DNA from: Streptomyces sp. 71268
GTDB lineage: Bacteria > Actinomycetota > Actinomycetes > Streptomycetales > Streptomycetaceae
Reading direction: 5' to 3'
Assembly: GCF_029392895.1 (NCBI RefSeq)
Contig: NZ_CP114200.1
Location: 4,185,001 to 4,249,000 of the forward strand
Length of the DNA: 64,000 bases
The notes beneath the pieces are model-generated. The model was not told the origin of the DNA. It saw nothing but the letters and a program-made list of their open reading frames with translations, and searched no databases. A program made the position numbers and the translations under genes. Below, one piece after another: positions 9,225 through 62,900 of the stretch (position 1 is its first letter; each line of letters begins with the position of its first letter).

Positions 9225-9671
9225 ATGAAGATCATCCTCACCCACGAGGTCACCGGCCTCGGCACCGCGGGCGACGTCGTCGACGTCAAGGACGGCTACG
9301 CTCGCAACTACCTGGTCCCGCGCGGTCTCGCGATCCGCTGGACCAAGGGTGGCGAGAAGGACGTCGAGCAGATCCGTCGCGGTCGTCGCATCCGTGAGAT
9401 CGCCACGATCGAGCAGGCCAACGAGATCAAGGCCAAGCTCGAGGGCCTGCGGGTCCAGCTCGCGACCCGTGCCGGCGAGGCCGGCCGCCTCTTCGGCTCG
9501 GTGACCCCGGCTGACATCGCCTCGGCGATCAAGTCCGCCGGTGGCCCGGACGTGGACAAGCGCCGCATCGAGCTCGGTACGCCGGTCAAGACCCTGGGCG
9601 CGCACCAGGTGTCCGTGCGCCTGCACCCCGAGGTCTCGGCCAAGGTCGGCGTCGAGGTCGTCGCGGCCTGA
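9225..9671 (+). CDS. rplI: 50S ribosomal protein bL9
   Basis: 148 residues. N-terminal RNA-binding domain [30 protein letters not shown] and a C-terminal domain joined by a long helix (about 40-75). 19 bases after rpsR; last gene of the operon, followed by a strong hairpin. Confidence 0.98.
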
Positions 9672-9827: not shown

Positions 9828-9841
9828 GTTTCACGTGAAAC
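9828..9841. promoter_or_regulatory. parS site (ParB-binding)
   Basis: Exact GTTTCACGTGAAAC palindrome, the canonical bacterial parS core bound by ParB for origin segregation. First of three sites in the non-coding gap between the rplI terminator and the MATE gene end. Confidence 0.95.
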
Positions 9842-9908
9842 GTGTGGGTCCTCGTCCGGCGGGGAGCGGTGTGGCGGTACGTGGTGCCGGCGGTCGTTGG
9901 GCGCGACG

Positions 9909-9922
9909 GTTTCACGTGAAAC
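9909..9922. promoter_or_regulatory. parS site (ParB-binding)
   Basis: Exact GTTTCACGTGAAAC. Second of the three, 81 bases from the first. Confidence 0.95.
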
Positions 9923-9938
9923 GTGGTCGGTGCGGGCT

Positions 9939-9952
9939 GTTTCACGTGAAAC
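9939..9952. promoter_or_regulatory. parS site (ParB-binding)
   Basis: Exact GTTTCACGTGAAAC. Third of the three, 30 bases (about three helical turns) from the second. Confidence 0.95.
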
Positions 9953-10029: not shown

Positions 10030-11367
10030 CTAGCGGGTCGCGCCCGTGACCAGCCAGCGGCCCGAGCGGGTGCGTACCCACAGGGTCAGCATCCGCATGG
10101 TCATCATGAGCACCATCGTCCACCACAGGGCGGTGAGTCCGCCTCCGAGGGTGGGGACGAGGAGGGCGACCGGGGCGAAGACGGCCAGGGTGATGATCAT
10201 CGCCACGGCGAGGTAGGGCCCGTCGCCCGCGCCCATCAGTACGCCATCGAGGATGTACACCACACCGGAGATGGGCTGGGAGACGGCGACGACCAGCAGC
10301 GCGGGGAGCAGCGCGTCCTGTACGACCTGGTCGGACGTGAACAGCGGGATGAACAGCGGACGGGCGAGGATGACGAGCACGCCGAGCACCACGCCGGAGG
10401 CTATCCCCCACTCGACCATGCGGCGGCAGGCGGCGCGGGCCCCCTCCTTGTCGCCGGCTCCGAGGTAGCGGCCGATAATCGCCTGGCCCGCTATGGCGAT
10501 GGCGTCCAGCGCGAAGGCCAGCAGGCTCCACAGGGTGAGGATGATCTGGTGTGCCGCTACCTCGGTGTCGCCGAGGTTGGCCGCGACGCCGGTGGCGATC
10601 AGGGTGACCGTACGCAGCGAGAGGGTGCGCACCAGGAGCGGCACCCCGGCCTGGGCGCAGGCGCGTATGCCGGCCGCGTCCGGGCGTAGCGATGCGCCGT
10701 GTCGACGGGCGCCGCGTACGACCACGGTGAGGTAGGCGGCGGCCATGGCCCACTGCGCGATGACGGTTCCCCAGGCGGAGCCGGCGATGCCGAGGCCGGC
10801 GCCGTAGACGAGTGCGGCGTTGAGCGCGGCGTTGGCGGCGAAGCCTCCGATGGCGACGTAGAGCGGGGTGCGGGTGTCCTGGAGGCCGCGGAGCACGCCG
10901 GTGGCGGCGAGGACGACGAGCATGGCGGGGATGCCGAGGGCGCTGATGCGGAGGTAGGTGATGGCGTGGGGCGCGGCGGTGCTGGAGGCGCCGAAGAGGT
11001 CGACCAGGCCGGGCGCCGTGGGTAGCACCACCGCGACCACGGCGGCGCCGATGAGCAGGGCGAGCCAGATGCCGTCCATCCCCTGCCGGATGGCGCCGGG
11101 CAGATCGCCCGCGCCGACCCGGCGGGCGACGGCGGCCGTGGTGGCGTAGGCGAGGAAGACGAAGATGTTGACGCCGGTGAGCAGCAGGGCCGCCGCGATG
11201 CCGAGCCCGGCGAGTTGGGGCGTACCCAGATGACCGACGATGGCACTGTCGACCATCACGAAGAGGGGCTCCGCGATGAGGGCGCCGAAGGCGGGAACGG
11301 CGAGCGCAATGATCTCTCGATCGTGCCGGCCGCGCGCACGCCGGTCCTTCGCGGGAGCCTGGATCAT
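10030..11367 (-). CDS. MATE family efflux transporter (DinF-like)
   Basis: 445 residues with twelve predicted helices in two halves; starts HDREIIALAVPAFGALIAEPLF as in the DinF branch of MATE exporters, which move cationic drugs or metabolites against Na+ or H+. I prefer the ATG at 11367; a TTG three codons upstream (11376) is possible. Neither has a strong ribosome site. Divergent from dnaB across a 460-base gap full of DnaA-box matches. Convergent with rplI, with parS sites between. Confidence 0.92.
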   Translation of the reverse strand: MIQAPAKDRRARGRHDREIIALAVPAFGALIAEPLFVMVDSAIVGHLGTPQLAGLGIAAALLLTGVNIFVFLAYATTAAVARRVGAGDLPGAIRQGMDGIWLALLIGAAVVAVVLPTAPGLVDLFGASSTAAPHAITYLRISALGIPAMLVVLAATGVLRGLQDTRTPLYVAIGGFAANAALNAALVYGAGLGIAGSAWGTVIAQWAMAAAYLTVVVRGARRHGASLRPDAAGIRACAQAGVPLLVRTLSLRTVTLIATGVAANLGDTEVAAHQIILTLWSLLAFALDAIAIAGQAIIGRYLGAGDKEGARAACRRMVEWGIASGVVLGVLVILARPLFIPLFTSDQVVQDALLPALLVVAVSQPISGVVYILDGVLMGAGDGPYLAVAMIITLAVFAPVALLVPTLGGGLTALWWTMVLMMTMRMLTLWVRTRSGRWLVTGATR

Positions 11368-11381
11368 GCGGCCCAATGTAA

Positions 11382-56942: not shown

Positions 56943-56952
56943 TCCTTGTGAA

Positions 56953-56968
56953 TGTGAACGCGTTCACA
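56953..56968. promoter_or_regulatory. Rex operator upstream of cydA
   Basis: TGTGAACGCGTTCACA, a perfect match to the Streptomyces Rex site. The outer CTTGTGAA and TTCACAAG arms (56945-56952 and 56963-56970) form a second, nested palindrome. Rex, an NADH sensor, represses cyd genes when NADH is low. Confidence 0.9.
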
Positions 56969-57059
56969 AGCTCGTCGATGCGTCCCCCTTTGACCGTGAT
57001 CAATGGGGTGGATCGCCCCGGCGGGTGCGCGGCTCAGCAAGACGGCAAGGAGACACGAC

Positions 57060-58661
57060 GTGGACCTGGCTCTGGCTCCGGAGACCCTGGCACGGTGGCA
57101 ATTTGGCATCACGACCGTCTACCACTACCTCTTTGTTCCGCTGACGATCAGCCTCGCGGCGTTCACGGCCGGTCTGGAGACCGCCTGGGTGCGCACGGGC
57201 AAGGAGAAGTACTTCCACGCGACGAAGTTCTGGGGAAAGCTCTTCCTGATCAACATCGCGATGGGTGTCGTCACCGGCATCGTGCAGGAGTTCCAGTTCG
57301 GCATGAACTGGTCCGACTACTCGCGCTTCGTCGGTGACGTGTTCGGCGCTCCCCTCGCCATGGAGGCGCTGATCGCCTTCTTCTTCGAGTCCACCTTCAT
57401 CGGGCTGTGGATCTTCGGCTGGGACAAGCTGCCGAAGAAGATCCACTGCGCGTGCATCTGGATCGTGGCCATCGGCACCACGCTCTCCGCGTACTTCATC
57501 CTGGCCGCCAACTCCTGGATGCAGCACCCCGTCGGTTACTCGATCGACAAGGCCACCGGGCGGGCCGAGCTGACGGACATGTGGGCCGTGCTCACCCAGA
57601 ACACCACCCTGGTCGTCGTCTTCCACACGCTGACCGCGGCCTTCCTCACCGGTGCGGCCTTCGTTGTCGGTATCGCCTCGTACCACCTGCTGCGTGCCAA
57701 GCGGGCCCAGGACCGGGGCGAGGAACTGCCGGAGAAGCAGCGTCGGCAGGTCGGCGCGATGCGCTCCTCGCTGCGGGCCGCGCTGGTGATCGCGGTGATC
57801 GCGGGGCTCGGCACCGCGATCAGCGGTGACCGGCTCGGCAAGGTGATGTTCGAGCAGCAGCCGATGAAGATGGCCGCGGCCGAGGCGCTGTGGGAGACCG
57901 AGGCGCCGGCGCCCTTCTCGATCTTCGCGGTCGGTGACGTGAGCGAGGGCCACAACAGCGTCGAGTTCAGCGTCCCCGGCATCCTCTCCTTCCTCGCGCA
58001 CGACAACTTCTCGGCCTCCGTGCCCGGTATCAACGACATCGCCGAGCGGGAGGCGAAGCTCTACGGCGGCGAGCCCGAGGACTACATCCCGAGCATCTTC
58101 ATGACCTTCTGGGGCTTCCGCCTCATGATCGGGTTCGGCATGACCTCCTTCGCCGCCGGCGTGATCGGCCTGTGGACCACTCGCCGAAAGCTGTGGCTCG
58201 CGCCGGACAAGCGGACCGGCGAGTACGAGGTCCCACGGCTGATGCTCACCAAGAACCGCGAGATGAGTGCCTTCTTCACCACCTGGTCCTGGCGGATCGG
58301 CCTGCTCACCATGGGCTTCCCGCTGATCGCCAACTCCTTCGGCTGGATCTTCACCGAGATGGGCCGCCAGCCCTGGGTGGTCTACGGGCTGATGCGCACC
58401 TCGGACGCGGTGTCCCCAGGCGTGAGCCAGACCGAGGTGGTGATCTCGATGAGCGTGTTCACGCTGCTGTACGGCGTGCTCGCGGTGATCGAGGTGAAGC
58501 TGCTGGCCAAGTACGCCAAGGCCGGGCCCGACGTGGACGAGAAGCCACCGGCCAAGGACCCGAAGCTGCGCTTCCCCAAGCCGGGCGACCCCGGGGCCGC
58601 CGGTGGCGGCGACGCCGCGTCGGCCGAGGACGCCGACAAGCCGATGACCTTCGCGTACTGA
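57060..58661 (+). CDS. cydA: Cytochrome bd oxidase subunit I
   Basis: 533 residues, nine helices. Haem ligands: the first His in TTVYHYLFVPLTI, the second in VFHTLTAAFLTGAAF, and the Met in EMGRQPWVV. Oxidises menaquinol and reduces O2. GTG start at 57060 with AAGGAG upstream; the open frame extends a little further. First gene of cydAB-cydCD. Confidence 0.97.
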   Translation: MDLALAPETLARWQFGITTVYHYLFVPLTISLAAFTAGLETAWVRTGKEKYFHATKFWGKLFLINIAMGVVTGIVQEFQFGMNWSDYSRFVGDVFGAPLAMEALIAFFFESTFIGLWIFGWDKLPKKIHCACIWIVAIGTTLSAYFILAANSWMQHPVGYSIDKATGRAELTDMWAVLTQNTTLVVVFHTLTAAFLTGAAFVVGIASYHLLRAKRAQDRGEELPEKQRRQVGAMRSSLRAALVIAVIAGLGTAISGDRLGKVMFEQQPMKMAAAEALWETEAPAPFSIFAVGDVSEGHNSVEFSVPGILSFLAHDNFSASVPGINDIAEREAKLYGGEPEDYIPSIFMTFWGFRLMIGFGMTSFAAGVIGLWTTRRKLWLAPDKRTGEYEVPRLMLTKNREMSAFFTTWSWRIGLLTMGFPLIANSFGWIFTEMGRQPWVVYGLMRTSDAVSPGVSQTEVVISMSVFTLLYGVLAVIEVKLLAKYAKAGPDVDEKPPAKDPKLRFPKPGDPGAAGGGDAASAEDADKPMTFAY

Positions 58662-58685: not shown

Positions 58686-59690
58686 ATGCACCTCCACGAC
58701 GTCTGGTTCGTGCTGATTGCCGTCCTGTGGACTGGCTACTTCTTCCTCGAGGGGTTCGACTTCGGCATCGGCGTACTGACCAAGCTGCTCGCCCGCGACC
58801 GCACCGAGCGCCGCGTGCTGATCAACACCATCGGGCCCGTCTGGGACGGCAACGAGGTGTGGCTGCTGACCGCTGGCGGCGCCACCTTCGCGGCCTTCCC
58901 CGACTGGTACGCGACGCTGTTCAGCGGCTTCTACCTGCCGCTGCTCGTCATCCTGGTCTGCCTGATCGTGCGTGGCGTGGCCTTCGAGTACCGGCACAAG
59001 CGCAGCGAGGAGAGCTGGCAGCGCAACTGGGAGCGGGCCATCTTCTGGTGCTCGCTGATCCCCGCGTTCCTGTGGGGCGCGGTGTTCGCCAACATGGTGC
59101 GCGGCGTGCCGATCGGCGCGGACAAGAACTTCGCGGGCAACCTGCTCGACCTGGTCAACCCGTACGCGCTGCTCGGTGGGTTGGTGACACTGACGTTGTT
59201 CACCTTCCACGGCGCGGTCTTCGCGGCGCTGAAGACCGTCGGTGACATCCGCACCCGGGCGCGCCGGCTCGCCGGCTGGCTCGGCCTGGTGACGGCGGCG
59301 CTCGCGGCGGCCTTCCTGGTGTGGACGCAGCTCGACTCGGGCGGCACGGGCAGCCTCGTGGCGCTGGTCATCGCCGTGCTCGCGCTGGCCGGGGCGCTGG
59401 TGATGAACGGTCGGGGTCGCGAGGGTTGGGCCTTCGGGCTCTCCGGGGTCACCATCGCGGCGGCCGTGGCCATGCTCTTCCTGTCGCTCTTCCCGGACGT
59501 CATGCCCTCCTCGCTCGACGCGCAGTGGAGCCTGACCGCCGAGAACGCCGCGTCCAGCCCGTACACGCTCAAGATCATGACGTGGATCGCGGGCGTCATG
59601 ACCCCCGTCGTGCTCGCCTACCAGGCGTGGACGTACTGGGTGTTCCGGCAGCGGATCGGGACCCAGCACATCCCCGTCGACGCGCACTGA
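58686..59690 (+). CDS. cydB: Cytochrome bd oxidase subunit II
   Basis: 334 residues, about nine helices; WTGYFFLEGFDFGIG and WDGNEVWLLTAGGATFAAFPDWYA are the family marks. 24 bases after cydA. Confidence 0.97.
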   Translation: MHLHDVWFVLIAVLWTGYFFLEGFDFGIGVLTKLLARDRTERRVLINTIGPVWDGNEVWLLTAGGATFAAFPDWYATLFSGFYLPLLVILVCLIVRGVAFEYRHKRSEESWQRNWERAIFWCSLIPAFLWGAVFANMVRGVPIGADKNFAGNLLDLVNPYALLGGLVTLTLFTFHGAVFAALKTVGDIRTRARRLAGWLGLVTAALAAAFLVWTQLDSGGTGSLVALVIAVLALAGALVMNGRGREGWAFGLSGVTIAAAVAMLFLSLFPDVMPSSLDAQWSLTAENAASSPYTLKIMTWIAGVMTPVVLAYQAWTYWVFRQRIGTQHIPVDAH

Positions 59691-59859
59691 TGTCTGCGCG
59701 ACGGACGGGCCGACGCGGGGAGTGTGCGGTGAGCGGGTGCGTGGCGAGGGCCGGGAGGTACGGCGGTGTCGGAGCCGAACGGATGCGGGCCGGGGCCGCG
59801 TTGGCCGGTGTCAGCGCGGGCGTGGCCACGGCCGGTGGGCGGCGGTGGGCCGGTCGGGT

Positions 59860-59873
59860 GTTTCACGTGAAAC
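59860..59873. promoter_or_regulatory. parS site (ParB-binding)
   Basis: Exact GTTTCACGTGAAAC; first of four in the cydB-cydCD gap. Confidence 0.95.
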
Positions 59874-59886
59874 CGTCCGCGCGCCT

Positions 59887-59900
59887 GTTTCACGTGAAAC
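59887..59900. promoter_or_regulatory. parS site (ParB-binding)
   Basis: Exact GTTTCACGTGAAAC; 27 bases from the first. Confidence 0.95.
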
Positions 59901-59913
59901 GGTCCGCGTGCGT

Positions 59914-59927
59914 GTTTCACGTGAAAC
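59914..59927. promoter_or_regulatory. parS site (ParB-binding)
   Basis: Exact GTTTCACGTGAAAC; 27 bases from the second. Confidence 0.95.
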
Positions 59928-59936
59928 CAGGTCGGT

Positions 59937-59950
59937 GTTTCACGTGAAAC
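59937..59950. promoter_or_regulatory. parS site overlapping the cydCD start
   Basis: Exact GTTTCACGTGAAAC; 23 bases from the third. Its central GTG (59944) is the likely cydCD start codon. Confidence 0.93.
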
Positions 59951-62900
59951 CAATCGACCCACGGCTACTGCACTACGCCCGCGCCACCCGCTTCTTCCTG
60001 CTCGCCTCGGTCGCCCTCGGGCTGGTCGGTGCCGGACTGGTCATCGCTCAGGCGATGCTCATCGCAGAGATCGTGGTGGGCGCCTTCCAGCGCGGCGAGT
60101 CCGTCGAGGGGCTGGCGACGCCGTTGATGCTGCTGGTCGGCGTCGCGGTAGGGCGGGCGGCGGTCGCCTCGCTGACCGAACTCGCCGCGCACCGGGCCAG
60201 CGCCGAGGTCAAGTCCGAGCTGCGGATGCGGCTGCTGACCCGGGCGACCGAACTCGGGCCCGGCTGGCTGAGCACCCAGCGCACCGGCGAGCTGACCACG
60301 CTGGCGACCCGGGGCGTCGACGCCCTGGACGACTACTTCGCCCGCTACCTTCCGCAGCTCGGGCTCGCCGTGGTGGTCCCGCTGGCGGTGCTGGCCCGGA
60401 TCGTCACCGAGGACTGGGTGTCGGCGCTGATCATCGTGATCACGCTGCCGCTCATCCCGGTCTTCATGATGCTCATCGGCTGGGCCACCCAACATCGGAT
60501 GGACCGGCAGTGGCGGTTGCTCTCCCGGCTCTCCGGGCACTTCCTCGACGTCGTGGCGGGGCTGCCGACGCTCAAGGTGTTCGGGCGGGCCAAGGCGCAG
60601 GCCGAGTCCATCCGCGCTATCACCTCCGACTACCGACGGGCGACGCTCAGGACGCTGCGCATCGCCTTCCTGTCCTCGTTCGCGCTGGAGCTGCTGGCGA
60701 CGCTGTCGGTGGCGCTGGTCGCGGTGGGCATCGGGATGCGGCTCGTGCACGGGGACATGGACCTGTACGCGGGGCTCGTCGTGCTGATCCTCGCGCCCGA
60801 GGCGTACCTTCCGCTGCGCCAGGTCGGGGCCGAGTACCACGCGGCGGCGGAGGGGCTGGCGGCGGCCGACGAGGTCTTCGCCGTCCTGGAGACCGGCGCG
60901 GCGGGGAGCCCCGATGCGTCCGGTGGTGCGGCGGGCCGTTCGTCCGCCGGTGGCCCGGGGCGTTCGGTCGGGGTGCCCGACGCGCGGTCGGCCGCGCTGG
61001 TGGTGGACGGCCTGGTGGTGCGACACCCCGGGCGTACCGAACCCTCCCTCGACGCGACCTCGTTCACCGTCGCGCCCGGTGAGACCGTGGCCGTCGTCGG
61101 GCCGAGCGGCGCGGGCAAGTCCACCCTGCTTCAGGTGGTGCTCGGGTTCGTGGGCCCGGGCAGCGGCGTGGAGCGGGGCGGGGTGCGCGTCGGCGACACG
61201 CCACTGGCCGACCTCACGGACGCGGGCTGGCGGGCCTGGCGGGACCAGGTGGCCTGGGTACCGCAGCGGCCCTACCTGTTCGCGGGCACCATCGCGGAGA
61301 ACGTGCGGCTGGCCCGCCCGGACGCCGACGACGAGGCGGTACGGGGCGCGCTGCGCGACGCGAGCGCGCTGGACTTCGTCACGGCGTTGCCCGACGGGCC
61401 GCAGACCGTGATCGGCGAGGACGGCGTGGGCCTGTCCGCGGGCCAGCGGCAACGGCTGGCGCTGGCCAGGGCGTTCCTCGCCGACCGGCCGGTGCTCCTG
61501 CTCGACGAGCCGACCGCGAACCTGGACGGCGAGACGGAAGCCCTCGTGGTGGACGCGGTACGCCGGCTGGCCGTCGGCCGCACGGTGTTGCTCGTCGTCC
61601 ACCGACCGGCCCTGCTGGCCATCGCGGACCGCGTGGTCCGCGTCGGACCGACCACCGAGGCGACACCGTCCGATGGGCGCGACGCGCTGCCGGCCGCGGC
61701 GGCCACGGGCGCGACCGCTCGCGCCGCGCGGGCGGTCGCCGACGGCCGGCCCGCGGGCGTGGCCCGGCCGGTAGCGGAGCAACGGGACGGTTCGGAGTCG
61801 GACCGGGCGGCGGTCGAGCCGGTGGGTCCGGTCGCCGGTGGCGCGCCGGTGGAGCCGGCCTCGGGCGAGGGCGGGCGGCGCCCGCACGTCGCGCCCGAGG
61901 CGGGCCCGGGCCGGCGGGAGCGCGGGGCGCTGGCCCTGGTGCGCGCGGTGGGCCGGGAGCGGCGGGGGCGGTTCGCGCTCGCCCTGCTGCTCGGCAGCCT
62001 CGCGCTGGGCAGCGCCGTCGGGCTGATGGCCGTATCCGGCTGGCTGATCTCGCGGGCCTCGCAGCAGCCGCCGGTGCTGTACCTGATGGTGGCCGTGACC
62101 GCGACCCGCGCGTTCGGCATCGGCCGCGCGGTCTTCCGCTACGCGGAGCGGCTCGTCTCGCACGACGCCGCGCTGCGCGTGCTGGCCGACCTGCGGGTCG
62201 CGGTCTACCGACGCCTTGAGCGGCTCGCGCCCGCGGGGCTACGTGAGAGCCGACGCGGAGATCTGCTGTCCCGGCTGGTCGCGGACGTGGACGCGATGCA
62301 GGACTACTTCCTGCGCTGGCTGCTGCCGGTCGGCTCGGCCCTGGTGGTGGGCGCCGCGTCCGTCGGGTTCATGACCTGGCTGCTGCCGGAGGCGGGCGCG
62401 CTGCTCGCGGTGGGGCTGCTGGCGGCCGGCGTCGGGGTGCCGCTGCTGACCAGCGCGTGGGCCCGGCATACCGAGCGGCAGTTGGCGCCCGCGCGCGGCG
62501 CGCTGTCGGTGGGCGTGGTCGATCTGCTGACGGGCACGGCCGAGCTGACGGTGGCCGGCGCGCTACCCACCCGTACGGCCTCGGTGCGCCGCGCCGACGG
62601 GTTGCTCACCACGATCGCGCGGCGGGCCGCCGGCGCGGGCGCGCTCGGGGCCGGGCTCGCGGCGCTGAGCTGCGGCATCACGGTCTCGGCCACCGCGTGG
62701 GTGGGCGTACAGGCGGTGCGGGACGGGCGGCTGGACGGGCTGTGGCTCGCGGTCGTCGTCCTCACCCCGCTCGCCGCCTTCGAGACGGTCGGCGGCCTGC
62801 CGGGCGCCGTGCGCTACCGGCAGCGGGTGCGGCGGGCGGCCGAACGGGTCCACGAGGTGTTGGACGCGCCGTCGCCGGTCCGCGAGCCGGACCCGGCGGC

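Follow-up and report, generated by a model that had tools for sequence, protein, structure and literature searches.

A putative ParB-loading site overlapping the cydCD start codon in the Rex-type cyd operon of Streptomyces sp. 71268

The stretch of the Streptomyces sp. 71268 chromosome analysed here (64,000 nucleotides, hereafter the window) carries four exact copies of the centromere-like palindrome parS upstream of cydCD, and the last of them is centred on the GTG that most likely starts this gene. We consider it probable, from comparison of this region across genomes, that the copy at 59937 is a true site of ParB loading, distal to the origin, that has become part of the translation start of cydCD within a Rex-type cyd operon and is kept by constraints acting both on DNA and on mRNA. 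The same bases seem, in this regard, to be kept for two jobs, those of centromere site and of translation start. ParB would read the site on DNA and the ribosome would read the same bases on mRNA: the left half of parS would serve as the spacer between the ribosome site and the start codon, and the right half would provide the start GTG, then AAA for Lys and the opening base of a Pro codon. If this is true, centromere and translation-start functions share bases across a large genus, at one gene and probably at two. The features on which the argument rests are the following, in window coordinates.

56952-56969, no strand assigned: Rex-operator-like site ATGTGAACGCGTTCACAA upstream of cydA, one mismatch to the consensus
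57003-58661, plus strand: cydA (PF01654), open reading frame start as listed, unrefined
58686-59690, plus strand: cydB (PF02322, TIGR00203)
59860-59873, no strand assigned: parS no. 1, exact, perhaps one unit of a 27-base tandem duplication
59887-59900, no strand assigned: parS no. 2, exact, perhaps one unit of a 27-base tandem duplication
59914-59927, no strand assigned: parS no. 3, exact, an extra copy whose position is not conserved
59928-59936, plus strand: spacer CAGGTCGGT with a weak Shine-Dalgarno-like AGG(T), where the conserved purine run of relatives falls
59935-59937, plus strand: alternative in-frame GTG start (would give MFHVKP...), 9 bases upstream of the central GTG, its last base being the first of parS
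59937-59950, no strand assigned: parS no. 4, exact, centred on the cydCD GTG, the conserved copy
59944-59946, plus strand: GTG, most likely cydCD start (V/M-K-P-I-D-P-R-L-L; VKPIDPRLL), inside parS no. 4; homologues lacking parS start at the same codon
59944-63741, plus strand: cydCD, fused thiol-reductant ABC exporter CydD-CydC (TIGR02857, TIGR02868; Pfam ABC domains)

A direct site search recovered the four exact sites (GTTTCACGTGAAAC) that the initial annotation had described, starting at 59860, 59887, 59914 and 59937 with start-to-start distances of 27, 27 and 23. The same annotation had them filling the 253-base gap between cydB and cydCD; the length of the gap is right (cydB ends at 59690 and the GTG lies at 59944), but 59691-59859 holds no parS and the fourth site enters the gene by 7 bases. 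The whole window contains 7 matches at up to three mismatches, all 7 of them exact, against a mean of 0.78 and a maximum of 5 in 100 shuffles. Compared with the published 16-base consensus TGTTNCACGTGAAACA (PMC2346475), parS no. 4 agrees at 15 of 16 positions (59936-59951), the last base being C and not A. The array of four is found in this genome and in G031 only, among the genomes read, with near-identical spacers. The first two sites with their spacers (59860-59913) resemble a 27-base tandem duplication (cgtccgcgcgcct / ggtccgcgtgcgt).

These sites belong to a chromosomal parS set of the usual kind. The 8.38-Mb genome holds 16 exact copies, 15 of which lie within 79 kb (4166019-4244950), clustered near oriC together with parAB; a DnaA (dnaA) motif occurs at 4160745, and 84 kb separate it from the cydCD parS. 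The genome encodes a cognate ParB with ParB_N, HTH_ParB and ParB_C domains and also ParA (both by Pfam), and a parB homologue is present in 121 of 121 Streptomyces genomes. ParB loading at parS and its subsequent sliding are described in published work, and the chromosomal parS clusters of Streptomyces ParABS systems share the same palindrome, near oriC and mostly on one side, with a rightward bias reported across streptomycetes (PMC8743542). In S. venezuelae, 16 or 17 parS sites have been counted, and most or all of them give a ParB ChIP signal (PMC4852455, PMC12511625). ParB would probably occupy the site at 59937; a DNA-binding protein other than ParB, of similar specificity, may read it instead. 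The lone exact parS outside the cluster lies at 3818605, about 350 kb away, and outliers occur also in several other genomes.

The placement of the fourth site depends on which codon starts cydCD. The GTG at the centre of the palindrome had been proposed as the one best fitting the CydD N-terminus, and our comparison agrees, with 59944 as the most likely start. This codon is favoured by the spacing of the Shine-Dalgarno (SD) sequence in relatives, by the N-termini of genomes lacking parS and by the 13 of 119 genomes in which no ATG, GTG or TTG besides the central GTG follows the in-frame stop. The ribosome site of the window itself is weak. Across the 119 Streptomyces genomes whose start parS has at most one mismatch, purines occupy position -14 in 118, -13 in 116 and each of -12 and -11 in 113, and an SD match of at least 4 bases is found in 91, lying 8-11 bases before the central GTG in 84 of these 91. 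It is unlikely, on the sequences compared, that translation instead begins at an upstream ATG or GTG at -9, in which case parS would be coding (FHVKP) and overlap that codon by one base. A second start is indeed available in most genomes, since the -9 codon is ATG in 60, GTG in 41 and TTG in 3 of 119. The remaining 15, however, have CTG (12) or ACG or AGG (3) there, in 108 of 119 genomes the end of the longest stretch of purines is 8-10 bases ahead of the central GTG, which places it against or almost against the -9 codon, and the genomes lacking parS start at the central codon.

With the central GTG taken as the start, the overlap proves to be strongly conserved, which answers positively whether other Streptomyces keep a parS at this position. 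A CydD N-terminal query matched all 121 Streptomyces genomes, and the start region was read in 119 of them, leaving out G001 (match not full-length) and G081 (match split over contigs, with the pattern nonetheless present); 17 further genomes of the genus, taken as best-scoring matches and not at random, bring the set to 136. parS lies in identical register on the cydCD start in this set, being exact in 118, with one mismatch in 1 (G169), two in 1 (G080), three to five in none and at least six in 16. The start parS is, in other words, nearly all-or-none. Searched as a pattern of parS plus the next codons, it is present in 346 of 392 Streptomyces genomes (337 of 380 of good quality), and all four named Streptomyces loci share the overlap; the exact pattern is absent in 46 of 392 (about 12%), which we count against the preferred explanation. 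Within the 119 genomes formed by the 118 exact ones and G169, the invariance of the 14 bases, the GTG and the AAA is no separate evidence, because they were chosen at no more than one mismatch; the T directly before parS, on which they were not selected, is present in 116 of 119, as in the 16-base consensus.

Beyond the genus, the start parS occurs in all 15 genomes read of a sister genus (15 of 35 drawn, 8 of these as best scorers), 6 of them exact and 9 carrying the variant GTTCCACGTGAAAC (e.g., L147, L180). It is absent from all 33 genomes read in a further 15 genera, and a class-wide draw with a pattern admitting GTTCCACGTGAAAC, which contained no other genus of the family, gave 0 of 354 genomes outside Streptomyces vs. 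33 of 40 within it. Four cydCD-like paralogues (G022b, G110b, G093b, G081b) lack it too; in a fifth, weak match (G012b), the start region does not align.

The variants found speak to what reads the palindrome. All one-mismatch forms (G169 and the 9 genomes of the sister genus) are GTTCCACGTGAAAC and differ solely at the N of the consensus TGTTNCACGTGAAACA; binding of both half-sites, GTTCCAC and GTTTCAC, is reported for the ParB proteins of several species (PMC7022226). We regard it as very improbable that the conserved element is an RNA hairpin at the start codon and not a ParB site. The palindrome does fold, with a 5-bp stem of -3.1 kcal/mol, and mean unpaired probability with vs. without parS is 0.53 vs. 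0.60 at the start and 0.36 vs. 0.50 in the SD region (134 vs. 50 genomes, no significance computed). Yet the sole variant that recurs (position 4 changed from T to C, in 9 of 15 genomes of the sister genus and in G169) turns a stem pair into C-A while fitting the DNA consensus, the fold energy of the start region does not differ with or without parS (p 0.50), and no compensatory stem changes that keep pairing appear in the genomes read, so that the element lacks the covariation by which a hairpin would be recognized. The pair-breaking recurrent variant and the equal fold energy are together our grounds for rejecting a hairpin as the main cause.

Carrying the site constrains codon choice. Among the 49 genomes that lack parS, 32 start with ATG and 17 with GTG, and their second codon is AAG in 31, AAA in 3 and Arg in 15, while Lys elsewhere in CydD (codons 4-95, in the 119) is encoded by 123 AAG vs. 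6 AAA. By fixing GTG and the Lys codon AAA, parS thus imposes an uncommon codon and a weaker start.

Starts of the form M(K/R)P(V/I)DPRLL occur without parS in other genera, which suggests that the protein start came first and that parS was written over it; the older start (RTG-AAR-CC) would already have given most of a half-site. Trees of cyd require 5 (183 rows) and 4 (102 rows) changes of state, with gain and loss not distinguished, and a parAB tree of 21 genomes, one row of which is very long, requires 3. All parS rows as one group are weakly rejected (p-AU 0.025, from a quick tree, the group having been defined after inspection of the first tree). Given shared ancestry and only 3-5 changes on the trees, few independent events stand behind the genome counts.

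These few changes of state, together with the MKP/MRP N-termini found without parS in other genera, are what would be expected if the site were harmless and persisted through common descent and coding constraint alone, a neutral carry-over that we find quite improbable. The left half is non-coding under the central-GTG start, yet sites with 1-5 mismatches number just 2 of 136, one of them within the consensus. Moreover, the start-codon parS is the only fixed copy: 47 of 119 genomes have additional parS within 300 bases upstream, scattered over 24 different offsets, so copies in the vicinity are not positionally stable. The suggestion that parS may simply tolerate this position does not hold up well either, as the strong conservation of the overlap makes bare tolerance at a random spot unlikely. 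Dual selection on DNA and mRNA would account for this pattern, in that the site, once made, could not easily be relocated, while the copies around it are gained and lost.

The operon shows the features of a Rex-type cyd operon, with an operator-like site upstream of cydA and the order cydA-cydB-cydCD. The site is identical to the S. avermitilis cydA1 entry in Table 1 of PMC5355995, and the Rex-controlled cydABCD operon of Streptomyces described there has the operator and gene order found here; parS, present in the window operon, goes unmentioned in the available parts of that paper. Among genomes with the start parS, the cydB-cydCD gap spans 12-271 bases, with a median of 60 and 24 gaps at or below 22 (118 measured), vs. 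-4 to 210 bases with a median of 12 (16 measured) among those without it (Mann-Whitney p 3.7e-5, a statistic that ignores kinship). The short gaps leave scant room for a promoter of cydCD's own, which makes read-through from cydA likely; the operon, presumably Rex-controlled at cydA, is thus probably transcribed through parS.

In this context, control of cydCD by ParB is possible. A strong form of it, in which ParB, once loaded on the start codon, controls cydCD as a roadblock to RNA polymerase coming from cydA or by lowering initiation, and so ties cytochrome bd assembly to the state of the segrosome, seems to us improbable from the comparisons at hand. The exact placement of parS kept across a genus would fit such a role, as would the longer gaps in genomes carrying it and the ParB-mediated repression of P. 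aeruginosa genes next to parS3 and parS4 (PMC7022226). Against it, genes beside parS in B. subtilis are reported as unchanged upon loss of Spo0J (PMC7022226), and cyd operons lacking the start parS exist at a similar distance from parB. A search of titles and abstracts, with subscription papers mostly outside it, returned nothing on ParB control of cydCD, on a cyd parS or on a start-codon parS. Under the reading we prefer, a loading site within the translation start, any effect of ParB on cydCD would probably be small.

Genomes lacking the start parS usually have a shorter cydB-cydCD gap and an ATG start. Sixteen such genomes were considered, and in the 10 that have cydCD and parB on one contig the two are 47-87 kb apart; cydCD can therefore do without the site. 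The distances in these 10 lead us to reject loss of the site through a move of cydCD far from the origin. In genomes hand-picked for parS counts, mostly of few contigs, eight with the start site hold 12-27 exact parS (this genome, G031 and G052, 16 each; G005, 22; G044, 12; G092, 14; G100, 18; G012, 27) and six without it hold 8-11 (G058, 11; G051, 9; G089, G105, G047 and G088, 8 each), with no exact parS near cydCD in these six. In this genome, G052 and G044, no parS on that side of the cluster lies further out than the one at cydCD, and G092, G005 and G100 have one more beyond it. Such a cluster-edge position fits the one-sided bias of parS and favours a role in segregation. Species with and without the site, together with parS-less cydCD paralogues within one genome, provide a natural test of whether the gene is influenced by ParB loading inside an operon. 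Contig C1 of G012 carries its 27 parS in several clusters and a cydCD copy millions of bases from parB, where rearrangement or misassembly is possible, and its parS count is all that we use from this genome.

Related arrangements are known elsewhere. In mycobacteria, parS within parA and upstream of gidB likewise overlaps a gene or promoter, and the authors propose that ParB may influence expression (PMC2346475); those sites fall within a coding region or coincide with a -10 box, none of them at cyd, and the available text does not describe them on a translation start. The parS3 and parS4 sites of P. aeruginosa are likewise close upstream of genes but are intergenic (PMC7022226), whereas the site studied here is mid-operon and on a start codon. 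As for Streptomyces, the accessible portions of the parS cluster papers cited above do not discuss a start-codon parS, and neither PMC4852455 nor PMC12511625 contains the term cyd. The window contains, besides, a further cluster of three exact parS at 9828-9952, between a gene ending at 9671 and a minus-strand gene at 10030-11376.

A second case seems to exist at parA, to judge from its reading frame. In this genome (4166017-4167312; L133 2018-3313), the parA start may fall within a parS, with the register found at cydCD. Upstream of parA, parS reads (GTG)TTTCAC-GTG-AAA-C and is followed by the conserved peptide VK(R/H)RSL..., whose reading frame continues without interruption into that of ParA in all 21 genomes read; the distance from this parS to one internal to parA keeps one reading frame in the 19 genomes having both. 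The pattern is found in 374 of 392 Streptomyces genomes, hits that were not individually read and some of which are other sites. Against such a start, GC at third positions over the first 60 codons amounts to only 0.53-0.73, a low value for coding sequence of the genus, and no clear SD sequence is present, so that ParA could start further in. We would give little weight to the broader idea that parS-start-codon fusions at parA and cydCD form a small conserved class in which ParB, sitting on the DNA of a translation start, would set the output of ParA and of the exporter that serves cytochrome bd assembly, the state of the segrosome feeding into both segregation and respiration. The parA-internal parS occurs in 19 of 21 genomes and a parB-internal one in 9 of 21, which places the cydCD site among the well-fixed parS, though not as the most fixed. 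A rough coding test over all 16 parS of this genome flagged only the cydCD and parA sites; applied to 15 of the 16 sites of G052, it flagged two others (L227, L233) and missed parA, and it is accordingly not a census. At L227 and L233, the central GTG of parS opens a long frame by this rough test.
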